DNA of 64,000 nucleotides from an uncultured bacterium. GTDB taxonomy: Bacteria; Oederibacteriota; PGYV01; Palsa-1178. The stretch spans positions 1 through 64,000 of the forward strand of contig CALAOR010000014.1 in NCBI GenBank assembly GCA_937889595.1, given 5' to 3'. Of this stretch, positions 32,357 through 60,754 are shown one piece after another (the first letter of the stretch is position 1; each line of letters begins with the position of its first letter). The notes under the pieces are model-generated. The model saw only the letters and a list, made by a program, of their open reading frames with translations. It was not told the origin of the DNA and did no database searches. The translations under genes were made by a program, and so were the position numbers.

Positions 32357-33529
32357 CTATAGTCCTGCTGCTTTCTTTAAAGCCGCTGCTTTGTCCGTAT
32401 ATTCCCAGGTGAAATCCTTGTCAAGCCTGCCGAAATGCCCGTGCGCGGCTGTCTTGCGGTATATGGGGCGCCTCAGATCAAGCGTTTCCCTGATACCCTT
32501 GGGTGTGAGTTTGAAAACTTTTTTTACCGCTTCTTCGATCCTGCTCTCTTCCACTTTGTTCGTGTCAAAAGTGCTGACCAGCACCGACGTGGGTTCCGCC
32601 ACTCCGATAGCATAAGAAAGCTGAACTTCGCATTTATCCGCAAGCCCTGCCGCCACTATGTTTTTCGCGACGTATCTTGCCATGTAAGCCGCTGAACGGT
32701 CGACTTTGCTCGGGTCTTTTCCCGAGAACGCGCCGCCGCCGTGCCTGCCCATTCCGCCGTATGTGTCCACAATTATTTTTCTGCCTGTCAGCCCGGTATC
32801 GCCTTCAGGGCCGCCGACCATGAACTTGCCGGTTGGGTTGATATGTATCTTCGTGTTCTTTGTAATCATTTCTTTGGGGATGACCGGGTCTATGACGTGC
32901 TTTTTGATGTCAGCGCGCAGTTTTTTGATGTCCACTTCAGCGTGCTGGTTTGATATGACTATGGCCGAAACTTCCACGGGCTTTCCGTTTTCATACCTTA
33001 CCGATACCTGGGACTTGCCGTCGGGGCGCAGGTAAGTGATGATTTTTTTTCTCCTGACTTCTTCCAGCCTTTCGACCAGCTTGTTCGCGTACATTATGGG
33101 CCACGGCATGAGCTCTTTTGTCTCGTTGGTCGCGTAGCCGAACATCATGCCCTGGTCGCCGGCTCCTTCTTCCTTGTTTCCTTTTTTCCCGCCGGCGTTG
33201 GTGACTCCCTGGCTTATGTCGGGTGACTGTTTGGAAATCGATATGAGTATGTTGCAGCTGTACGGGTCTATGCCGTCTTCCTTTGTTTTATATCCTATCT
33301 CCAGGAGCGTGTCGCGTACTATCTTCTGGAAATCCAGCGTCGCGGTAGTCGTTATCTCTCCGGCTATGACCACTATGCCTTTGGCGAGCAGTGTTTCGCA
33401 TGCTACCCTGCTTTTTGTGTCCTGCCTTAATATCTCGTCCAAAACCGCGTCCGAGATCTGGTCCGCCACTTTGTCAGGATGACCGCATGTAACTGATTCC
33501 GATGTAAAAATCCCGTCTTTTACTTCCAT
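32357..33529 (-). CDS. metK: S-adenosylmethionine synthase
   Basis: 390 residues. ATP-binding [20 protein letters not shown], then [35 protein letters not shown] and [20 protein letters not shown] are all canonical. It makes SAM from methionine and ATP. AAGGAGG lies upstream of the ATG. A TATAAT lies near 33580, but there is no clear -35 and no SAM riboswitch is visible in the 200-base leader. First gene of the metK-ahcY unit. Confidence 0.97.
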
Positions 33530-33677
33530 TTATTTGTTCCTCCTTAAGGAAAATTTGTAAAGTAAATTTACGAAATTATATCACAGGGGGATGTGTATTT
33601 CCATAAAAATTTTACTTTAATCAGGTACTTGATTTGAGACTTATTAAGCGCAAATTTGTAAAATAGTTAAAGATGTT

Positions 33678-33706
33678 TTGACAAAAAGGCTGATAAGCCT
33701 TATAAT
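33678..33706 (+). promoter_or_regulatory. Consensus promoter of the 33744 surface protein gene
   Basis: TTGACA (33678-33683), 17-base spacer, TATAAT (33701-33706): perfect consensus 37 bases before the ATG, like the lipoprotein promoter at 12010. Confidence 0.85.
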
Positions 33707-33743
33707 TGTGATTAATTAAACGTCAAAAACACGCAGGGGTGTT

Positions 33744-34889
33744 ATGGGCAAATTATCATACTTGGTTCTTTCAATTTTGCTTTTCACGCCTGTATCGTCA
33801 TATGCGCTTGTAAACGGCGATTTTGAGACAGGCGATCTTTCAGGCTGGACCGTCAGCTTAAGCTTGTACGGCGGCCCTTCTGTAAGTATTGTTTCCCCTG
33901 GAACAGCTTTGTGGACAAACGGCGGATTAAACATGGTGCATTCGGGCAAATATGCCGCCATGCTTTATTCCGGTGTGAATGATTCATACCATGCCGATTG
34001 GGCCAGGATAGAGCAGGCTGTCACCGTGCCCCCCGGCCAAAATATGCTGGAGATGTGGTTTGCCGCAGTAATAAACTTCAATCATTTTTCAGGCGGGGTA
34101 TACGGGGATGATACTTACGTTCTTTTCGAGGTGTTGGATCCCGTAGGCGGAACCATATACAGCCAGCGTTTTTCGTCATTTGATAATGCGGCGGCCTTAA
34201 TTGACGATACTCCGGGCGATGACTGGAAATACCTCCCCTGGCAGCAGATCACTGTACCCTTAAGTTCATATGAAAACCAGACCCTTACTGTCAGGTACAC
34301 AGCTTATGACTGCAACTTCGGCGGCCATTTTTCATACGGTTACATAGACGACCTTCGTTTTGTCATACCGCCCTCACCCACCCCCACATTCACGGTCTCG
34401 CCCACTATTACGGAAACTCATACAATTACCCCGACATTCTCGGTGACAGATACTTATACAGTAACACCCACCTGCACTCCTTCATATACAGCCACCCCGA
34501 CCTTCACTCCCACATATACAAACACATTTACGGCAACGATAACTCCTACAACCACGCCGACTTTTACGCCTACTTTCACAAACACCCCCGTGCCTTTTGT
34601 TTTTAAAATAAAGGGCTCTTTCCCAAACCCTTCGGTATATAACTCTCATATAGTTTACTATTTAAGCCGCGACGCGCATGTCACCATGCAGGTTTTTGAC
34701 GTGTCAGGCGAAAAGGTGCGATTTAATGAGATGGAAGGTTACGGGGGGTATAATGAATGGTTCTGGGACGCCAGTAACCACGCTGTTAAGCCTGTTGCCA
34801 GCGGGGTATTCATAATAAAAGGGACGGCTGTTGACCCTATATACGGCGGTAAATACATTGACTGGTGTAAAGCGGCGATCACAAAGTAG
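33744..34889 (+). CDS. Secreted carbohydrate-binding-like protein with Thr-rich stalk and FlgD-like C-terminal module
   Basis: 381 residues, ATG with GGGGTG upstream; signal peptide to residue ~21. Residues 22-215 are a beta-sandwich starting LVNGDFETGDLSGWTVSLSL, the pattern of CBM/laminin-G-like C-terminal sorting proteins. Residues ~215-290 are a Thr/Pro repeat (TPTFT, TYTVTP...). Residues ~290-381 form a module shared with the next gene (NPSVYNSHIVYYLSRDAHVT, then a FlgD/Ig-like HVTMQVFDVSGEKVRF), identical in both over the last ~75 codons. The stalk and C-terminal module suggest surface display. Possible sorting signal; family mechanism not known to me. Confidence 0.75.
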   Translation: MGKLSYLVLSILLFTPVSSYALVNGDFETGDLSGWTVSLSLYGGPSVSIVSPGTALWTNGGLNMVHSGKYAAMLYSGVNDSYHADWARIEQAVTVPPGQNMLEMWFAAVINFNHFSGGVYGDDTYVLFEVLDPVGGTIYSQRFSSFDNAAALIDDTPGDDWKYLPWQQITVPLSSYENQTLTVRYTAYDCNFGGHFSYGYIDDLRFVIPPSPTPTFTVSPTITETHTITPTFSVTDTYTVTPTCTPSYTATPTFTPTYTNTFTATITPTTTPTFTPTFTNTPVPFVFKIKGSFPNPSVYNSHIVYYLSRDAHVTMQVFDVSGEKVRFNEMEGYGGYNEWFWDASNHAVKPVASGVFIIKGTAVDPIYGGKYIDWCKAAITK

Positions 34890-34975
34890 ATTTAAATCAC
34901 GGATACCGTATTAAGTATCTTTACTTCCTCCGCGTACGCTTTCATTTTTTCAGCGAATTCGGCTATAATTTTCTC
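34541..34975. repeat. Duplicated block, copy 1 (C-terminal module plus nrdG tail)
   Basis: Starts AACTCCTACAACCACGCC, spans the last ~115 codons of the 33744 gene, its stop, and 86 further bases that copy the end of nrdG. Copy 2 is 36408-36842 at a constant offset of 1,867 bases with no indel; the later ~300 bases look identical. Confidence 0.9.
34892..34975 (-). pseudogene. Duplicated 3' fragment of nrdG
   Basis: These 84 bases repeat the last codons and stop of the nrdG gene that ends at 36759. Only ~27 codons are present and there is no start, so this is a dead gene end copied with the surface-protein module. Confidence 0.85.
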
Positions 34976-34986
34976 AAGGGACACTG

Positions 34987-36756
34987 ATGAAAAAAAAATT
35001 GATTCTGCTGTGTTTTGTCTTATTGCCGGCCGTGTACGCGTGCGCCGCCATAGACAACAAGGGCACCGATTTCTGGATATGCTTCCCCGCTACCAATCAT
35101 CTCTCGGGCGGCGGGGTAAAAACCCTTAACATAACCGGGAATACTGCCACAACCGGAAATATAAGCATACCCGGGCTGGGCTATACCCAGGATTTTACAG
35201 TGACGCCCGGAGTCATGACATCCATAACACTGCCCCTGGCTGCCGAGCCTTTGGATACTGTCGGGGAATCCATAACCAATGTGGGCATACATGTAACATC
35301 AGCTGACAGCATAGCGGTATACGGATTAAGCTGGCTGTTAGCCATCGCGGACGCTTATCTCGCGCTTCCCGTCCCGTCGCTTGGCAACGAGTATATAGCA
35401 GCCACATATAAAAACTCCCCGGGACTTCCGGGAAGTGAATTTGCGGTCACTGCCTGCCAGGACAACACCACATTAACAATAACGCCTTCAACTGCCACCG
35501 GAGGGCACGCGGCAGGCGTGCAGTACAACATAGTTTTGAACCAGGGCCAGGTATACCAGCTTTTAAACGGTGACGCCTCAGGCGACCTTACGGGTTCCAT
35601 CGTGCTTTCGGACAAACCAGTTGCGTTTTTCGGCGCGCACAGGTGTGTTCTTATTCCGCAAAACATACAGACATGTGATTATATTGTGGAGCAAATTCCT
35701 CCGGTACCTTCCTGGGGAACAGAATTTGTGAGCATACCGCTTCAGGGCAGGATGAACGGCGATACTTACAGGATCGTGGGGTCGCAGGATAATACATCGG
35801 TATATATAAACGGTGTCCTGGTTTCCCTGAACAGGACGCAGTTTTATGAAAATATTTACAGTGTTCCCCTGCATATAACCTCGGATAAACCCGTGATGGT
35901 CATGCAATACGCAAACGGTTCGCAATATGACGGCCAATTGGGTGATCCTTTTATGATGTATATACCGCCCATAGAACAGTATTTAAACAGCTATACCGTG
36001 ATAAACCCGGATATTAATTTTACCCTGAATTATTTAAACCTGCTCGTGCCTGATTCTGAAACAAGCGCCGTAAACCTGGACGGAACAAACGTTCCTGCAT
36101 CAAGTTTTTTTCCGGTAGGTGCAACCGGCTACTCCGGCGCCCAGATCCCTGTCAATATCGGCACGCATAACGTATCAAGCCTGCTGCCTTTCGGTATTTT
36201 TATATACGGCTGGGGTGACTATATTTCATACGGTTATACCGGCGGTATGTCCTTAAGCGACCTGCAAAAAACCGCCACTGTAACACCTACTATAACACCG
36301 ACCTGGACCTTTTCTGCCACAGCCTCGTCCACACCTTCCAGAACGCCGACCTTTACCATAACGCAAACCCACACTTCAACTTACACGCCGACATATACAC
36401 AAACCGCAACTCCTACAACCACGCCGACTTTTACGCCTACTTGCACAAACACCCCCGTACCTTTTGTTTTTATAATAAAGGGCGCATTCCCAAACCCTTC
36501 GGTATATAACTCGCACATAGTGTACTATTTAAGCCGCGACGCGCATGTCACCATGCAGGTTTTTGACGTGTCAGGCGAAAAGGTGCGATTTAATGAGATG
36601 GAAGGTTACGGGGGGTATAATGAATGGTTCTGGGACGCCAGTAACCACGCTGTTAAGCCTGTTGCCAGCGGGGTATTCATAATAAAAGGGACGGCTGTTG
36701 ACCCTATATACGGCGGTAAATACATTGACTGGTGTAAAGCGGCGATCACAAAGTAG
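34987..36756 (+). CDS. Secreted IgGFc-binding-like protein with the same stalk and C-terminal module
   Basis: 589 residues; ATG 11 bases after the end of duplicated block 1, with AAGGGA upstream. Signal peptide (LILLCFVLLPAVYACA). Residues ~22-430 begin IDNKGTDFWICFPATNHLSG and continue VGIHVTSADSIAVYGLSW and KPVAFFGAHRCVLIP, typical of the IgGFc-binding N-terminal repeat region in secreted bacterial proteins. Residues ~430-500 form a Thr-rich stalk; the last ~90 residues are the module shared with the gene before it. The 3' end, including sequence beyond the stop, is duplicated. Probably surface-exposed; adhesion is inference. Confidence 0.75.
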   Translation: MKKKLILLCFVLLPAVYACAAIDNKGTDFWICFPATNHLSGGGVKTLNITGNTATTGNISIPGLGYTQDFTVTPGVMTSITLPLAAEPLDTVGESITNVGIHVTSADSIAVYGLSWLLAIADAYLALPVPSLGNEYIAATYKNSPGLPGSEFAVTACQDNTTLTITPSTATGGHAAGVQYNIVLNQGQVYQLLNGDASGDLTGSIVLSDKPVAFFGAHRCVLIPQNIQTCDYIVEQIPPVPSWGTEFVSIPLQGRMNGDTYRIVGSQDNTSVYINGVLVSLNRTQFYENIYSVPLHITSDKPVMVMQYANGSQYDGQLGDPFMMYIPPIEQYLNSYTVINPDINFTLNYLNLLVPDSETSAVNLDGTNVPASSFFPVGATGYSGAQIPVNIGTHNVSSLLPFGIFIYGWGDYISYGYTGGMSLSDLQKTATVTPTITPTWTFSATASSTPSRTPTFTITQTHTSTYTPTYTQTATPTTTPTFTPTCTNTPVPFVFIIKGAFPNPSVYNSHIVYYLSRDAHVTMQVFDVSGEKVRFNEMEGYGGYNEWFWDASNHAVKPVASGVFIIKGTAVDPIYGGKYIDWCKAAITK

Positions 36757-36842
36757 ATTTAAATCACGGATACCGTATTAAGTATCTTTACTTCCTCCGC
36801 GTACGCTTTCATTTTTTCAGCGAATTCGGCTATAATTTTCTC
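36408..36842. repeat. Duplicated block, copy 2
   Basis: Counterpart of 34541-34975. It covers the C-terminal module of the 34987 gene and the 3' end of nrdG, which runs convergently with a 2-base gap between the stops. Confidence 0.9.
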
Positions 36843-37460
36843 CGGATACGGTGCTGTGTTTTTCATGCCTGGGTCATAAGTTTTTGTATTATCATACTGT
36901 TGTACCGTGAATCTTTTCGCGCCATTGACCATACTGCCAATCTTGTGCGCGTCTTCCATATCCACATACCCCGGCACCACGGTTGTGCGGAACTCGTAAT
37001 CAATCCCCGAACCCATGATCATGGCGGCTGATTCTTTTATTTTTTCAAGATCAACTTTGACGCCGCAGGCTTCCGAATATTTTTCAGGTGCGGCTTTTAT
37101 GTCCATGGCTATGTAGTCAATGAGTTTTTTATCCATAAGTTCTTTTAATGCCTGCGGCCTGTAGCCGTTAGTGTCGAGCTTTACAAACAGGTTCAGGCTT
37201 TTTAGTGCGGCGGCAAACTGCGGAAGGTCAAGTTGGAGTGTGGGTTCCCCGCCTGTGATAGTAACTCCTTCTATGAATCCCGATCGCTCGGCCAGATCAA
37301 CGAGTATGGCGTCCGTGTCCAATACATCATTATTAACGGTCACAAGCAACGGGTTATGGCAGAAAGCGCATTTGAAATTGCAGGGAGAAGTGTATATGAT
37401 GGAACAAACCTTGCCCGGATAATCGACAAGCGAGACGCCTTCAAAACCGTTTATCTGCAT
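36759..37460 (-). CDS. nrdG: Anaerobic ribonucleotide reductase activase (NrdG)
   Basis: 233 residues from the ATG at 37460, which has GGGAG upstream and the usual start QINGFEGVSLVDYPGKVCSI. The radical-SAM cluster CNFKCAFC (CxxxCxxC) and TITGGEPTLQ are intact. It uses SAM to create the glycyl radical on NrdD. It lies downstream of the split nrdD genes on the same strand. Its 3' end is duplicated at 34892-34975. An upstream in-frame start at 37490 is less likely. Confidence 0.93.
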   Translation of the reverse strand: MQINGFEGVSLVDYPGKVCSIIYTSPCNFKCAFCHNPLLVTVNNDVLDTDAILVDLAERSGFIEGVTITGGEPTLQLDLPQFAAALKSLNLFVKLDTNGYRPQALKELMDKKLIDYIAMDIKAAPEKYSEACGVKVDLEKIKESAAMIMGSGIDYEFRTTVVPGYVDMEDAHKIGSMVNGAKRFTVQQYDNTKTYDPGMKNTAPYPEKIIAEFAEKMKAYAEEVKILNTVSVI

Positions 37461-37523
37461 GAAACTCCCTTCCATAGAGGCGGGCAGCATAATATGCTGC
37501 CCCTACAAAATCTTACCAGTATA

Positions 37524-37733
37524 TTACTGCGCGATTACTGCCGTTACTTCCGCTGCCTTTGCCTCATATGTAACCCTGTCCGCGAACTCTTCCTGCTTGC
37601 CGTTATTCCACTGTTTTACCGGCCTGAAGTAACCCACTATCCTCGAGTACACTTCGCATTCGGTCCCCTTAACATTCGCAAGTTCGTTCTTCAACTCTTC
37701 AATTTTCAGAATCAGTTCTGACCTTTCCGCCAT
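37524..37733 (-). CDS. Stand-alone glycyl-radical domain of class III ribonucleotide reductase
   Basis: 69 residues, ATG with AAGGAGG upstream. N-terminal ~23 residues are a heptad-like helix (LILKIEELKNELANVKG); the rest, ECEVYSRIVGYFRPVKQWN and then GKQEEFADRVTYE, is the C-terminal glycyl-radical region of NrdD, with the R-x-x-G-Y motif where the radical Gly sits. The main NrdD gene stops 44 bases upstream without it. A real gene with its own start, not a frameshift tail. It should dock on NrdD to complete the enzyme. Confidence 0.85.
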   Translation of the reverse strand: MAERSELILKIEELKNELANVKGTECEVYSRIVGYFRPVKQWNNGKQEEFADRVTYEAKAAEVTAVIAQ

Positions 37734-56138: not shown

Positions 56139-56266
56139 TTGGTATCCCCCTTTATTTGATGGCAAATTCTAACATTATTTAAAACAGCCGGTCAAGAATA
56201 AATAATAATCCGCCTGTATGATTGTGTCAATAGATATGTGCACCAGATCTTGAGTTAATAGCTATA

Positions 56267-56692
56267 GGGCCTTCGGAATTTCCCCCGTCCCTGTTTAGAG
56301 GGGGCAAGCCCCCTCTCTACGAAGTCTAAAGCGGCTTCAGTCCTTCTATAATACCTACCAAGCTTGCTAAATCTACTCTCGACTATCTACTCTCTCACGC
56401 CCTTCGCTCCACTTATAATATTGCAAGGGCGCGGGTCATGAGCGAAGCGATACCGTGTCATGTACCTGAGCTACTGCGAATGGTACATGATGACCAAGCC
56501 CGCAGCAATAGACATTGATCAACTTTCAATTTTCGATTCTCGGGCCTTCTTCCCCTGCCTGCTGCCGGCCACGTTGGCGCGGAAGAGGTAGTAGCCGGGT
56601 ATTTTATCATGGGTTCCATAGAGTGACCATAGACTTTAGTTATGAACTTAACTCCGGTTAAGTAAAAGCTATAAGTGAGTCTGACCCCTTCC
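56267..56692. repeat. Composite repeat array: half B, E, C, A and D units
   Basis: In order: right half of B (56267-56320); a block CTTCTATAATACCTACC...CTACTCTCTC (E, 56343-56396); CACTTATAATATTGCAAGGGC (C, 56411-); the A/C composite (56455-56514); and the D unit (56548-56692) ending in TGAGTCTGACCCC. It spans the gap between the barrel-like gene and the RhuM/Doc gene and holds no intact gene. Confidence 0.85.
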
Positions 56693-56693
56693 A

Positions 56694-57851
56694 CTATTTT
56701 ATAACATTCGTTATAACATTTATCATCGTTTCTTTTTCCCGCGGGTTGCTTACGGCCGCAAGCAGCGTCAAAGCCGCGAGCGCGCCGTCGCTTACCCTTT
56801 TTTCCCCGTTTTTTTTGTAGAGCAGGCCGTTTTTGGACATATAGTGGATAAAAAGTATGGCGGCGAGCCTTTTATTGCCGTCAATAAACGGGTGCCCCTT
56901 GACCGCGAAATAAAGCAGGTGCGCGGCCTTTTCCTCGGTTGCCGGGTAAAGTTCATTGCCGTCAAAGGTTTGGTTTACGGCGCCTATTATACCTTTGAGT
57001 TTGCCCGTTGCACCGGCGCCGAAAAGTACAGAGGCCTTTTTATTTTTTGAATATTCGGCTTTTGCCTTCGTCACGACCTCAAGTGAATCTTCAAAGCTGA
57101 TGGTATAGACCGGTTTTGATCCGCCAGCGCTTTTTAAATTCATATCGTCATAATCCTGAAGTATCTCAAGCGAAGCGGAATACTCGGCAATCAGGTTTAA
57201 CAGTTCTTTTTCCATCCCCATTCCTCCGCCAGCACCGGCGGCTTTGGATATCATCCTGACAGCCGCATTTAGCTCGCGAAGGGCCGCGTTCTTTTCCTTC
57301 AGCCGTCTTTCATTTACTGTGTAACCTTTTTCAATATGCGCCCTTAGCACCTTTGTGGCCCACACCCTGAATTGTGTGGCTTTTTTGGAGTTCACGCGGT
57401 AGCCTACTGAGATTATCATATCCAGGGAATACGTGCCGGTTTTATACTTTTTTCCGTCCGGAGCAGTAAGTTCCAAAATGGAACTAACTGATTTTTCTTC
57501 CAGTTCCCCGGAGACAAATATATTCTTAATATGCTTTGTGATGGCAGGCCGTCTTGTCCCAAAAAGCAAAGCGATCTGCCTTTGGGTCATCCATATGCTG
57601 TCATTAATAAAATGAGCCTCAACTACGGGGCCGCCGGCCTGTTCATAGAGGACTATATCGCCTTTGTTCCAGTTACTGTCAGTGCCGGCCTCCTCGCTCA
57701 GCATGAAAGCTTCGTTTGCGGAAATGATATAGTTTTTTCCTGCCTTTTTAGCGCGGACCAGTCCTTTTTTTACCTTTTTAAATACCGCGACCCTGCTGAT
57801 ATGCATCAGTTTGGCTATTTCAGGCACGCTGTAAAATTCCTTTTTTTCCAT
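56694..57851 (-). CDS. HTH-RhuM-Doc fusion protein
   Basis: 385 residues from the ATG at 57851 (GGAG upstream). Residues ~1-55 are an excisionase-like HTH (FYSVPEIAKLMHISRVAVFK). Residues ~65-190 match virulence RhuM proteins (WMTQRQIALLFGTRRPAITK, TYSLDMIISVGYRVNSKKAT, FRVWATKVLRAHIEKGYTVN). Residues ~260-385 are a Doc/Fic-like domain with HPFIDGNKR (residues ~320-328). RhuM-Doc fusions exist; the added HTH is notable. The missing G-x-G-R in the motif fits Doc kinases rather than AMP-transferases. Possibly a toxin with its own repressor. Confidence 0.8.
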   Translation of the reverse strand: MEKKEFYSVPEIAKLMHISRVAVFKKVKKGLVRAKKAGKNYIISANEAFMLSEEAGTDSNWNKGDIVLYEQAGGPVVEAHFINDSIWMTQRQIALLFGTRRPAITKHIKNIFVSGELEEKSVSSILELTAPDGKKYKTGTYSLDMIISVGYRVNSKKATQFRVWATKVLRAHIEKGYTVNERRLKEKNAALRELNAAVRMISKAAGAGGGMGMEKELLNLIAEYSASLEILQDYDDMNLKSAGGSKPVYTISFEDSLEVVTKAKAEYSKNKKASVLFGAGATGKLKGIIGAVNQTFDGNELYPATEEKAAHLLYFAVKGHPFIDGNKRLAAILFIHYMSKNGLLYKKNGEKRVSDGALAALTLLAAVSNPREKETMINVITNVIK

Positions 57852-57886
57852 GACACGCTCCATGGTTAACATTGAATATAGTTTGC

Positions 57887-57900
57887 ATTGGTTAACCAAT
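57887..57900. promoter_or_regulatory. Palindrome ATTGGTTAACCAAT, candidate operator
   Basis: Perfect 14-bp palindrome 36 bases upstream of the RhuM/Doc start, with more GTTAAC copies at 57864 and 57909. Autorepression by the HTH domain is a reasonable guess. Confidence 0.5.
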
Positions 57901-58025
57901 ATAAAAAGTTAACATAGGCTCCGGCAAAAGTCAAGCGCCGGAGCAATACGGATTTTTAAGTTAAATTATTTGATGAGAAATTTGTCATGTATCAGGTCAA
58001 GGCCTGACCCTTGAACTTGTATTTC

Positions 58026-58255
58026 GTAGAGAGGGGGCTTGCTCCCTCTCACCGCCGGCTTTAGGTCCATCGGCATTTCCCCCGTCCCTGATTAGAGGGG
58101 GCAAGCCCCCTCTCTACGAAATCTAAAGCGGCTTCAGTCCTTCTATAATACCTACCAAGCTTGCTAAATCTACTCTCGACTATCTACTCTCTCATGCCCT
58201 TCGCTCCACTTATAATATTGCAAGGGCCCACCGGGCCCGCAGCAATGGACCATGT
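58026..58255. repeat. Composite of family B copy with E/C units
   Basis: Full family B hairpin (58026-58117), then the E block with CTTCTATAATACCTACC and ATATTGCAAGGGCCC...GCCCGCAGCAATGG (C). Identical order to 56267-56440. It runs into the cut end of the ORF6N gene. Confidence 0.85.
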
Positions 58256-58521
58256 TCGGTAAAAACATTTGGCAGATATTTTAAGTGTTTTTCTGTGCCC
58301 TCTAAGGTGCCAATTTGGCACCTTAAAAGGTCATACTCTTCCCTGATTAAAACATACATAAAATCATCAGGAAAGCTCTCAATATTCCTGCGTACCTGCC
58401 GGTTCAGTTGTTTTGTCTCCACCCCATAAAACACCGCCAGATTGCTGTCCAGCATAACCTTTTGACAACGTATTAAGTACATCTTTTGCACAATATTTTC
58501 AACCGGTATCAAACCCTTCAT
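58210..58521 (-). pseudogene. Truncated ORF6N protein
   Basis: 103-residue frame. Starts MKGLIPVENIVQKMYLIRCQ, matching the 4358-4867 ORF6N gene to YLPNVFTEHG, and then changes to PLLRARWALAIL, which is coded by the C repeat. About 70 residues of the family are lost. The repeat insertion or rearrangement cut the gene. It sits 36 bases after the DUF1016 gene, the usual ORF6N-DUF1016 partner order. Confidence 0.8.
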
Positions 58522-58557
58522 CTGATCCCCCTTGTATTTTAAGTATCTTTAACTTTG

Positions 58558-59568
58558 TCAAAAAATCCTTCCGGCAATTTCTTCAACCTGCCCGATATGT
58601 TTCCTGTATTTCACCGGCAGCTTGTCCGTAAACCTGTAGGAAGCGACTCCTATAGGATGTTTCACGGAGCTCAATGAATACTCCACAATCGTTCTATTTT
58701 TTGTTTTGCACAGAATAATTCCTATGGAAGGATTTTCTTCTTTCAGTTTTACCCTGTCATTTAAAACGGAGAGATAAAACTGCATTTTCCCGGCATACTC
58801 CGCTTTAAATTCCCCTGTTTTTAATTCCATTGCAACAAGGCATTTCAACGTGCGGTGGTAAAAAAGCAGGTCTATAAAAAACTCATGCCCGTCAACTTCC
58901 ACCCTGTACTGACTCCCCACAAAACTAAAATATCCGCCCATCTCCGTCAAAAACCTGTTTATTTTCATTATTAACTGTTCTTCGAGCTGCCTCTCCGCGT
59001 GTTCTTCCGGCAGTTCAAGGAAATCAAACGTATATTCATCTTTGACGGCAAGCTTTGCCTGGTTCCTGTATTTTTCCGGTACTACAGCGTCAAAATTGGT
59101 CTGGTTTTCAAGATAAGCGCAGTAGCTGTTCCCTTCTATCTGGTGAATCAATACGTTTTTTGTCCATCCGAATTTTTTTGTCATTTGAATATAAAACATC
59201 CGTTCTTTGATATCCCTGCATGATTCCATTATTACGATATTTTTAGCCCAGCTGATTTCTGCCACCAATGGTGGCAGTTTTGTATCCGTTTGACACATTT
59301 CGTAAAAAGCCTTCATCCTCCAGATATTCCTGCTGGAAAATCCTTTCATTCCGGGGTATTCCAGTTGCAGATCATATGCCAGATTCTCCACCACAGCCTT
59401 ACCCCACTTCAGCACCGACTGCTTTTCGCAGATCATTCTTCCTAAATCCATGTACAGGGTTATTAACTCATTGTTTACAGCCCTTAACGCCTCATACTGC
59501 GCCTTCCTTATGCGTTCTTTCACCTCGCCAAGAAACTCTACGTAGCCTTTTTTAACTGCTTTTCCCAT
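58558..59568 (-). CDS. DUF1016 / YhcG-type PD-(D/E)XK nuclease-like protein
   Basis: 336 residues from the ATG at 59568, just after GGGGG; a longer frame to 59616 lacks a good site. N-terminal helical domain with GYVEFLGEVKERIRKAQYEA and WAKNIVIMESC. C-terminal nuclease-like domain with HEFFIDLLFYHRTLKCLVAM then ELKTGEF (E-x-K) and a following Q helix. DUF1016 proteins (YhcG in E. coli) are predicted nucleases often next to ORF6N or restriction genes. The AGTATAC operator at 59608-59636 controls it. Pieces of the same gene recur at 4111-4347 and 59809-60210. Confidence 0.85.
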   Translation of the reverse strand: MGKAVKKGYVEFLGEVKERIRKAQYEALRAVNNELITLYMDLGRMICEKQSVLKWGKAVVENLAYDLQLEYPGMKGFSSRNIWRMKAFYEMCQTDTKLPPLVAEISWAKNIVIMESCRDIKERMFYIQMTKKFGWTKNVLIHQIEGNSYCAYLENQTNFDAVVPEKYRNQAKLAVKDEYTFDFLELPEEHAERQLEEQLIMKINRFLTEMGGYFSFVGSQYRVEVDGHEFFIDLLFYHRTLKCLVAMELKTGEFKAEYAGKMQFYLSVLNDRVKLKEENPSIGIILCKTKNRTIVEYSLSSVKHPIGVASYRFTDKLPVKYRKHIGQVEEIAGRIF

Positions 59569-59607
59569 ATCCCCCCTATATTTTGCCGTATATTTGAAAA
59601 CTAATAA

Positions 59608-59636
59608 AGTATACACATTGTATACTTTATTGTCAA
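59608..59636 (-). promoter_or_regulatory. Promoter with AGTATAC-N5-GTATACT operator for DUF1016 gene
   Basis: TTGACA (59631-59636), 17 bases, TATACT (59608-59613) on the minus strand. The perfect inverted repeat AGTATAC-acatt-GTATACT covers 59608-59626. Confidence 0.85.
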
Positions 59637-59773
59637 CGCGATTTTTAATAACGCCAAAGTGGTGTAATAGAATGTGCGGGCAATTATAATTGTCGATGAA
59701 TCCGCCTTATGTCTGATAAAGTATTTATGCTATGGAATTTACATTAATTAATCGTAACTCATAATCTTCATAA

Positions 59774-59803
59774 GGATAAAAGCTATTTGTGAGGTCTGAC
59801 CCC
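59774..59803. repeat. REP-like ggtctgacccc element
   Basis: GGATAAAAGCTATTTGTGAG and GTCTGACCCC, the end of repeat family D alone, right at the cut 3' end of the DUF1016-like fragment. Confidence 0.75.
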
Positions 59804-59808
59804 AACCA

Positions 59809-60210
59809 CTAGTTTTTAACTGTTTTATCCGCATACCAAAGTCGTTCACTTTTATCACTAATTTTTTCCATCAGGGCAAGATTATGATACCATGTTATTT
59901 GTGCAAGTGACTCTTGCACAATTGTCCGGCTTTTATATTCCTGGGCAAATTTTCTCATGTATTTCAGGTTCCGCGTGGAAAAACCCCTCATATCCGGGAA
60001 TTCGCGCATGAGATCAGCGGATAATCTGCCTATGACTTTTGTGCCCCACCCCTGTTGTTTTTGATTTTTAAGTATCATAATCCCTATTTCCCAGTACATG
60101 ATAACCATCCCGCTATTCGCCGCAAAAACCGCTTTAACTCTGGCAGAGCCAATCCGCTCTTTCACCTCTCCAAGAAACTCCACATAGCCTTTTTTAACTG
60201 TTTTTTCCAT
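59809..60210 (-). pseudogene. Truncated DUF1016 N-terminal fragment
   Basis: 133-residue frame from the ATG at 60210. MEKTVKKGYVEFLGEVKERI is nearly the same as the start of the gene at 59568, and ITWYHNLALMEKISDKSERL is like the DUF1016 second helix region. It then stops at the REP-like element, lacking the nuclease domain. A decayed duplicate, but with an intact promoter/operator of its own. Confidence 0.8.
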
Positions 60211-60249
60211 ATACCCCCCTATATTTGCCGTATATTTGAAATCAAATAA

Positions 60250-60278
60250 AGTATACACTTTGTATACTTACGTGTCAA
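60250..60278 (-). promoter_or_regulatory. Promoter with AGTATAC-N5-GTATACT operator for DUF1016 fragment
   Basis: TTGACA (60273-60278), 17 bases, TATACT (60250-60255) on the minus strand. AGTATAC-acttt-GTATACT covers 60250-60268. Identical layout to 59608-59636. Confidence 0.85.
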
Positions 60279-60315
60279 TTGGAATTTTACTTATCAGGTT
60301 ATTTTGTGAATTGTC

Positions 60316-60725
60316 ATGCATCAGGTCAAGGCCTGTCCCTGGAACTTATGGAACTTATTATAATACCTACCGAGCTTGCTAAATCAACCTGCTCAATCTG
60401 TTCAATCTGCTCACAAGCTTTTCGCTCCACTTATAATATTGCAAGGGCCCCCCGGGCCCGCAGCAATAGACATTGATCAATTTTCGATTCTCAATTCTCG
60501 AACGGAACAAATGAAGGTGCACAGACTTATGTTCTATTGATTCTCCGGGTCCTTTATATCCCTGTGCTGCGCCAGCACTATCTTCCCCTGCCTGCTGCCG
60601 GCCACGTTGGCGCGGAAGAGGCAGTAGTCGGGTCTTTTATCATGGGTTCCATGGAGCTACCGTAGACTTTAGTTATGAACATACTCAGGTTAAGTAAAAG
60701 CTATAAGTGAGGTCTGGCCCCTTCA
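60316..60725. repeat. Composite repeat array with E, C and D units
   Basis: AGGTCAAGGCCTG, E-like ATAATACCTACC, C (ATATTGCAAGGGCCC, GCCCGCAGCAATAGAC), then D (60581-60723) with TTCCCCTGCCTGCTGCCGG and GAGGTCTGGCCCCTTC. Minus-strand reading of D shows an intact protein piece (KRPDYCLFRANVAGSRQGK). Confidence 0.85.
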
Positions 60726-60754
60726 ACTATTGGATGGCACGATTTTCCCGATTA

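Follow-up and report, generated by a model that had tools for sequence, protein, structure and literature searches.

The window (the whole stretch of 64,000 nucleotides analysed here) lies on contig C14 of a genome of 3.42 Mb in 93 contigs, which is 99% complete. Between metK and nrdG we found two genes for putative surface proteins in the same orientation, gene1 and gene2, with gene2 starting 97 bp behind gene1 (Table 1). The promoter-like site upstream of gene1 is a perfect sigma-70 consensus (12/12 positions) and the best among 12 such sites found in 33400-37700, where shuffled sequences average 8.1 at a looser threshold; the best promoter-like sites upstream of gene2 fall inside gene1 (10/12 at 34726 and 9/12 at 34831). 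This arrangement makes co-transcription likely, and gene2 is probably carried in the transcript of gene1.

Table 1. Features of the metK-nrdG locus (positions are those of the window).
Feature	Position	Strand	Description
metK	32357..33529	-	Flanks the pair on the left, with ahcY immediately after it; protein 95.6% identical in G001 (same genus), where the gene order is the same
Promoter-like site	33678..33706	+	Upstream of gene1; TTGACA, 17 nt, TATAAT; candidate from sequence
gene1	33744..34889	+	381 aa; signal-peptide-like start (by eye), N-domain, Thr/Pro linker, C-terminal module
Block copy 1	34541..34975	+	435 bp, by direct comparison
Mismatch-bearing part of copy 1	34541..34655	+	All 8 mismatches to copy 2
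Identical part of copy 1	34656..34975	+	320 bp, same in copy 2
nrdG relic	34892..34975	-	Last 28 codons including stop; rest of gene absent
Unique insert	34976..36407	+	1,432 bp between the copies; ribosome-binding-like AAGGG, gene2 N-part, most of its linker
gene2	34987..36756	+	589 aa; signal-peptide-like start (by eye), IgGFc_binding (residues 122-408), Thr/Pro linker, module of the gene1 kind
Block copy 2	36408..36842	+	435 bp, by direct comparison
C-terminal module of gene2	36451..36753	+	Seven-stranded beta-sandwich, PorU/PorZ C-terminal domain-like (predicted model)
nrdG, intact	36759..37490	-	Anaerobic ribonucleotide reductase activase, NrdG2; TIGR02495, 197.7 bits (cut-off 131)

The initial annotation had reported a block of 435 bases that occurs twice at a constant offset of 1,867 bases, and direct comparison of the two copies proved this exact to the base, with 427 identical positions (98.2%), a similarity that is far beyond chance. 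Each copy consists of the last 349 bp of its gene (116 codons with the stop, where about 115 codons and the stop had been counted), 2 bp, and 84 bp of nrdG corresponding to the last 28 codons of that gene including its stop. The stops of gene1 and gene2 lie within the copies, the two nrdG tails give the same translation, and the nrdG relic that had been proposed between the two genes is indeed present. Left of 34541 the similarity falls to the level of Thr-Pro linker DNA, and right of 34975 there is no similarity of note between the copies. In the searched genome the block has no third copy: four further matches span no more than 33 to 106 bp of it, mostly linker, and no closer source of its first 115 bp turned up there. 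A plain tandem duplication as the sole event was rejected, since only 435 bp are common to the two units and neither their N-parts nor their upstream regions are similar.

The 8 mismatches (34576, 34592, 34606, 34617, 34619, 34646, 34649 and 34655) all fall within the first 115 bp of the block, which are 7% divergent, and none falls in the remaining 320 bp. Four of them are synonymous and the other four lie in three changed codons (F/C, K/I, S/A). When 8 mismatches were placed at random in 435 positions, a mismatch-free run of at least 320 arose in 0.016% of 200,000 placements, and Fisher's test of 8/115 against 0/320 gave p = 2e-5 with the split point chosen post hoc from the same data. With 0/320 differences the divergence of the identical tract has a 95% upper bound of 0.9%, and this tract includes 86 nt past the stop which are identical although they are free to change in copy 1. 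Because the mismatches are confined to the first 115 bp, the block appears to have two ages: judging from the alignment, this part looks older, or of a different lineage, than the last 320 bp. The identity noticed earlier for the last 300 or so bases extends to 320 bp, and the divergence of the first 115 bp argues against one uniform recent copy. Genomes G009 and G002 were too diverged as references to polarise the 8 differences. A diversity-generating retroelement was rejected as their source: the genome has no RVT_1 match (a control of 14 genomes gave matches in 3), and the differences show no adenine pattern (A at 1/8 of the differing sites in copy 1 and 2/8 in copy 2).

The unique insert between the copies begins 11 bp before the ATG of gene2 and stops where the shared linker starts. 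This anatomy bears on a second form of tandem duplication, in which gene1, its module and the nrdG end were duplicated together, the second N-part was later replaced by that of gene2 through a joint in the linker, and conversion keeps the last 320 bp alike. Such a history would account for the relic and for a gene1-type module in both genes, and recurrent linker DNA, seen at two other places as 33-39 bp at 87-91% identity, could have served as the joint; however, it needs two events, with the replacement starting right at the end of the relic, and no trace of the gene1 N-part or of its upstream region is left between the relic and gene2. We regard this course as unlikely, though worth keeping in mind.

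gene2 encodes an IgGFc_binding protein (PF17517, E 1.6e-80) with relatives across the phylum at identities of up to 46%. In the 99%-complete genome there was no second copy of the gene2 N-part or of the insert, the other matches being linker only, and our search for donor DNA found none, the nearest gene2 relatives being at most 46% identical. Among 15 relatives fetched, all 13 with complete ORFs end in another type of module (printed tails judged by eye). A 19-module tree places gene1 and gene2 in one group with the gene1 relative of G009 (UFBoot 94, SH-aLRT 92, slightly below the level that the tool stars), and the module of gene2 is identical to that of gene1 in its last 89 residues. The tails of the relatives and the grouping in the tree indicate that gene2 carries a module foreign to its own family and of the kind found in gene1.

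We compared the locus with 13 genomes of the same order, one of which (G001) belongs to the same genus. A clear nrdG was present in 11 of the 13 (G010 had no match and G013 a weak one), and metK was next downstream of nrdG in 7 of these 11 loci, with 77 to 2,004 bp between the two genes; in the other 4 metK lay outside the examined stretch, which in three cases was only 1.1-1.5 kb long. Neither the gene2 N-part nor a second nrdG end gave a match (E 1e-3) in any examined gap of the 11 loci. G001 has the order nrdD, nrdG, 300 bp, metK, ahcY, without a surface gene and thus without the insert. In its otherwise empty gap (L062:1760-2059), at the place where the window has both genes, we observed by eye an inverted-repeat-like element, CATTGCGGGGAACGTGA...GACGAAGCAATCT.

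Remains of a gene1-like gene were found in 1 of the 11 loci, that of the same-family genome G002, as a frame-broken gene convergent with nrdG (combined E of 5e-24 in one search and 1.9e-18 in another). They hold N-domain motifs like those of gene1 (WFAAV, YTAY, GYIDDLRFV) and, at the C-terminus, DPIYGG and an FCK..LVK pattern, and their final 47 residues align to the gene1/gene2 module with a score of 121, compared with no higher than 88 for any of 12 other modules. A full-length relative of gene1 (54%) exists in G009, of the same order, elsewhere in the genome, and the gene1 N-domain itself has a weak match to NTTRR-F1 (E 6.9e-5, 23 bits against a cut-off of 70). Since the gap is empty in G001 and holds gene1-like remains in G002, gene1 is likely an old neighbour of nrdG which was lost in G001, decayed in G002 and kept here, although the G002 remains, being weakly conserved, may instead stem from a paralogue inserted independently into the same gap.

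The homologous locus in sister genomes, which the initial annotation had proposed to inspect for one or two genes, thus has neither gene in G001 and a single gene1-like remnant in G002; sisters with both genes and no relic, named there as counterevidence, were not found among the same-order relatives. The idea that the ends of the block explain how the second gene gained its C-terminal module gains support from these loci together with the other module type of the gene2 relatives. To this we add that gene1 is likely to have stood beside nrdG first and gene2 to have arrived later. An old gene pair under concerted evolution, with the identical tract as the product of ongoing gene conversion between direct repeats, would explain why 320 mismatch-free bp stand beside 115 bp that are 7% divergent, which has the look of a conversion tract. 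However, gene2 and the relic are absent from the 11 same-order nrdG loci examined, including that of the same-genus genome, and conversion alone cannot create an nrdG relic, so that we consider such a pair improbable.

The module shared by the two proteins was modelled from an alignment of 16 modules, and that of gene2 is predicted to form a seven-strand beta-sandwich (mean pLDDT 95.3). The best PDB match of the model was the C-terminal domain of PorU (6za2_A, Foldseek E 5.3e-6; VIA Z 12.9, rmsd 2.2 over 98 residues), and PorZ (5m11) gave Z 10.6; unrelated Ig-like domains followed close behind PorU at Z 10-12, which makes the fold by itself weak evidence. TIGR04183 was matched by each of the 16 modules at E 0.1 or better, with the module of the window (20.3 bits) and the whole proteins (16.6 and 16.8) under the cut-off of 23, and for this reason we term the module T9SS-like only. 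Elsewhere in the genome there are a SprA-like ORF (L176:4759-11154 on C76; TIGR04189, E 5.5e-55, 186 bits against a cut-off of 200) and a PorU-like C25 peptidase ORF (L177:625-4275 on C10), which passes Peptidase_C25 and Propeptide_C25 and is under the cut-off of NF033707 (62.8 against 420). SprA-like matches occurred in 40 of the 44 genomes of the phylum searched, this one included, with 3 above the cut-off. The module is similar to the type A sorting domain of the T9SS in being a C-terminal Ig-like beta-sandwich behind a long linker with the PorU C-terminal domain as its best solved match, and differs in its score under the cut-off and in that T9SS export in the phylum is only predicted. Judged from the model and these matches, a T9SS-type sorting domain is the most likely identity of the module, and the gene1 and gene2 proteins would be putatively exported to the surface. 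Our literature search found nothing on type IX sorting domains together with Goldbacteria, and in the text of PMC7031533 available for type IX secretion in Goldbacteria the word "secretion" occurs once, in the reference list.

The reliability of the assembly was considered as well. An untrimmed Illumina adapter core was present at 10 exact places at or near contig ends (the reversed pattern, used as a control, gave 0), on contigs C8, C9, C14, C23, C31, C33, C35, C54 and C56, including the end of the contig of the window itself (108657-108669 on C14). At the end of C31 an ORF runs into the adapter. The assembly thus rests on short reads, and since a perfect repeat of 320 bp, which the assembly crosses twice, can exceed the read length, an assembler could have linked gene1, its module and nrdG to a gene2 unit that is separate or present in several copies, or a mixture of strains could be represented; copy number or order in the chromosome would then differ from the assembled one. 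Against this, the joins between the nrdG scrap and gene2 and between gene2 and the module adjoin unique sequence and could not be produced by a collapsed repeat, and with one copy of each part the assembled path should be the only linear one; the alternatives to it would be a free circle of 1,867 bp or more than one gene2 unit. We therefore hold an assembly effect to be very unlikely, and the assembled structure is probably right, though the number of gene2 units may differ from that in the short-read assembly.

Taken with the foreign module and the sister loci, we think it probable, with some reserve, that gene2 is a captured gene which was inserted between gene1 and nrdG and came to end in the module of gene1. 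We infer the order of events and the route from the anatomy of the locus as follows. The ancestral locus would have been metK (-), gene1 (+), nrdG (-), with the gene1 module reaching up to the nrdG end, and the incoming DNA would have carried the gene2 N-part, namely a ribosome-binding site, the IgGFc_binding domain and a linker. The left end of the insert would have joined 84 bp inside the nrdG end, apparently without homology, and right of 34975 the sequence departs from nrdG at once (as compared with the recipient nrdG only). The right end would have joined through linker/module homology to a second copy of the gene1 module and the intact nrdG; here gene2 runs into the part common with gene1 at 93% and then 100% identity. 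The product would be gene1 - module - nrdG scrap - gene2 - module - nrdG, with the 435 bp between the two join points present twice, and gene2 would thereby have acquired, at its C-terminus, a module of the type IX sorting kind. The route could be one-sided (homology-facilitated illegitimate) recombination in which module DNA is the anchor for the incoming DNA, and a two-step template switch during repair could give the same anatomy; one-sided recombination or template switching counts as one step, where duplication followed by replacement of the N-part takes two. Because the first 115 bp are gene1-type and yet 7% divergent, one clean event is insufficient without a diverged donor or later conversion. 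For the 7% and 0% parts two readings fit best: gene2 arrived with a gene1-type module that had diverged beforehand, and the crossover fell near 34656, or the last 320 bp were converted later.

Comparable events have been described. In the passages of PMC3240628 and PMC5361080 that deal with homology-facilitated illegitimate recombination (HFIR), one end is joined by homology and the other without it, and foreign DNA is added beside a conserved anchor, and a comparable one-sided route is given there for Vibrio T6SS arrays and Rhs loci. The capture proposed for gene2 would likewise have one homologous end at a conserved anchor, and its other end may be non-homologous. It differs in that the incoming gene is anchored by its 3' end, that part of the recipient (the module and the nrdG end) was duplicated, and that the non-homologous junction is read from the recipient side alone. 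In the displacement of Vibrio T6SS effectors, which leaves orphan immunity genes, and of Rhs C-terminal parts as cited in the same account (PMC5361080), recombination is also anchored in a conserved part of the locus, a new variable part is brought in, and the event can be recognised by a remnant of the old arrangement. There, however, the variation lies 3' of a constant 5' part, while at the gene2 locus the N-part varies in front of a constant 3' module; moreover, the old gene is kept whole here, the remnant comes from an unrelated housekeeping gene, and no toxin or immunity gene was seen at the gene2 locus.

The type of event is thus known and fairly ordinary, and the gene2 locus is a clear, recent and tidy new case. 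It would be a readable fossil of a surface protein with a new N-part that carries the C-terminal tag of its neighbour, in which the nrdG scrap marks the direction and extent of the event. A more speculative extension, for which we see a small chance, is that module DNA is a reusable anchor through which an incoming gene gains a resident module and a promoter in one step, with gene2 a removable cassette of gain and loss by way of the 320-bp copies; by analogy this would be the 3'-anchored mirror image of the 5'-anchored displacement in Rhs and T6SS effector genes. Repeated use of the module as an anchor, if it occurs, would help to explain the dozens of surface proteins in these genomes with a common linker and module and differing N-parts. 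Between direct repeats like these, gene2 should be lost at some rate. The two identical 320-bp copies predict strains with and without gene2, which gives a direct test.

Further, we searched for similar module copies by comparing 17 stretches of the same genome and the window mutually. Among the repeats at 90% or more whose reading frames were inspected (L156, L158, L171 and the window), no other one was at the 3' end of a module gene, and further repeats inspected below 90% were those of L165 (88.6%), L157/L159 (89%) and L152. The tandem IgGFc genes of G006, G011 and G012 (L168-L170) had no comparable near-identical end block, the long matches there being of 227 bp in L168 and 252 bp in L169, both at 75% identity. 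No literature was found on the module combined with gene conversion. In L152 (1-3235, on C65 of the same genome) we observed a tandem pair of module-bearing surface genes of 524 aa each, which are 78.7% identical over their last 389 bp and thus more diverged than gene1 and gene2. In addition, region 56261-60731 of the window contains several similar repeats of 98-170 bp outside ORFs, with 82-96% identity, spread over about 4.5 kb.
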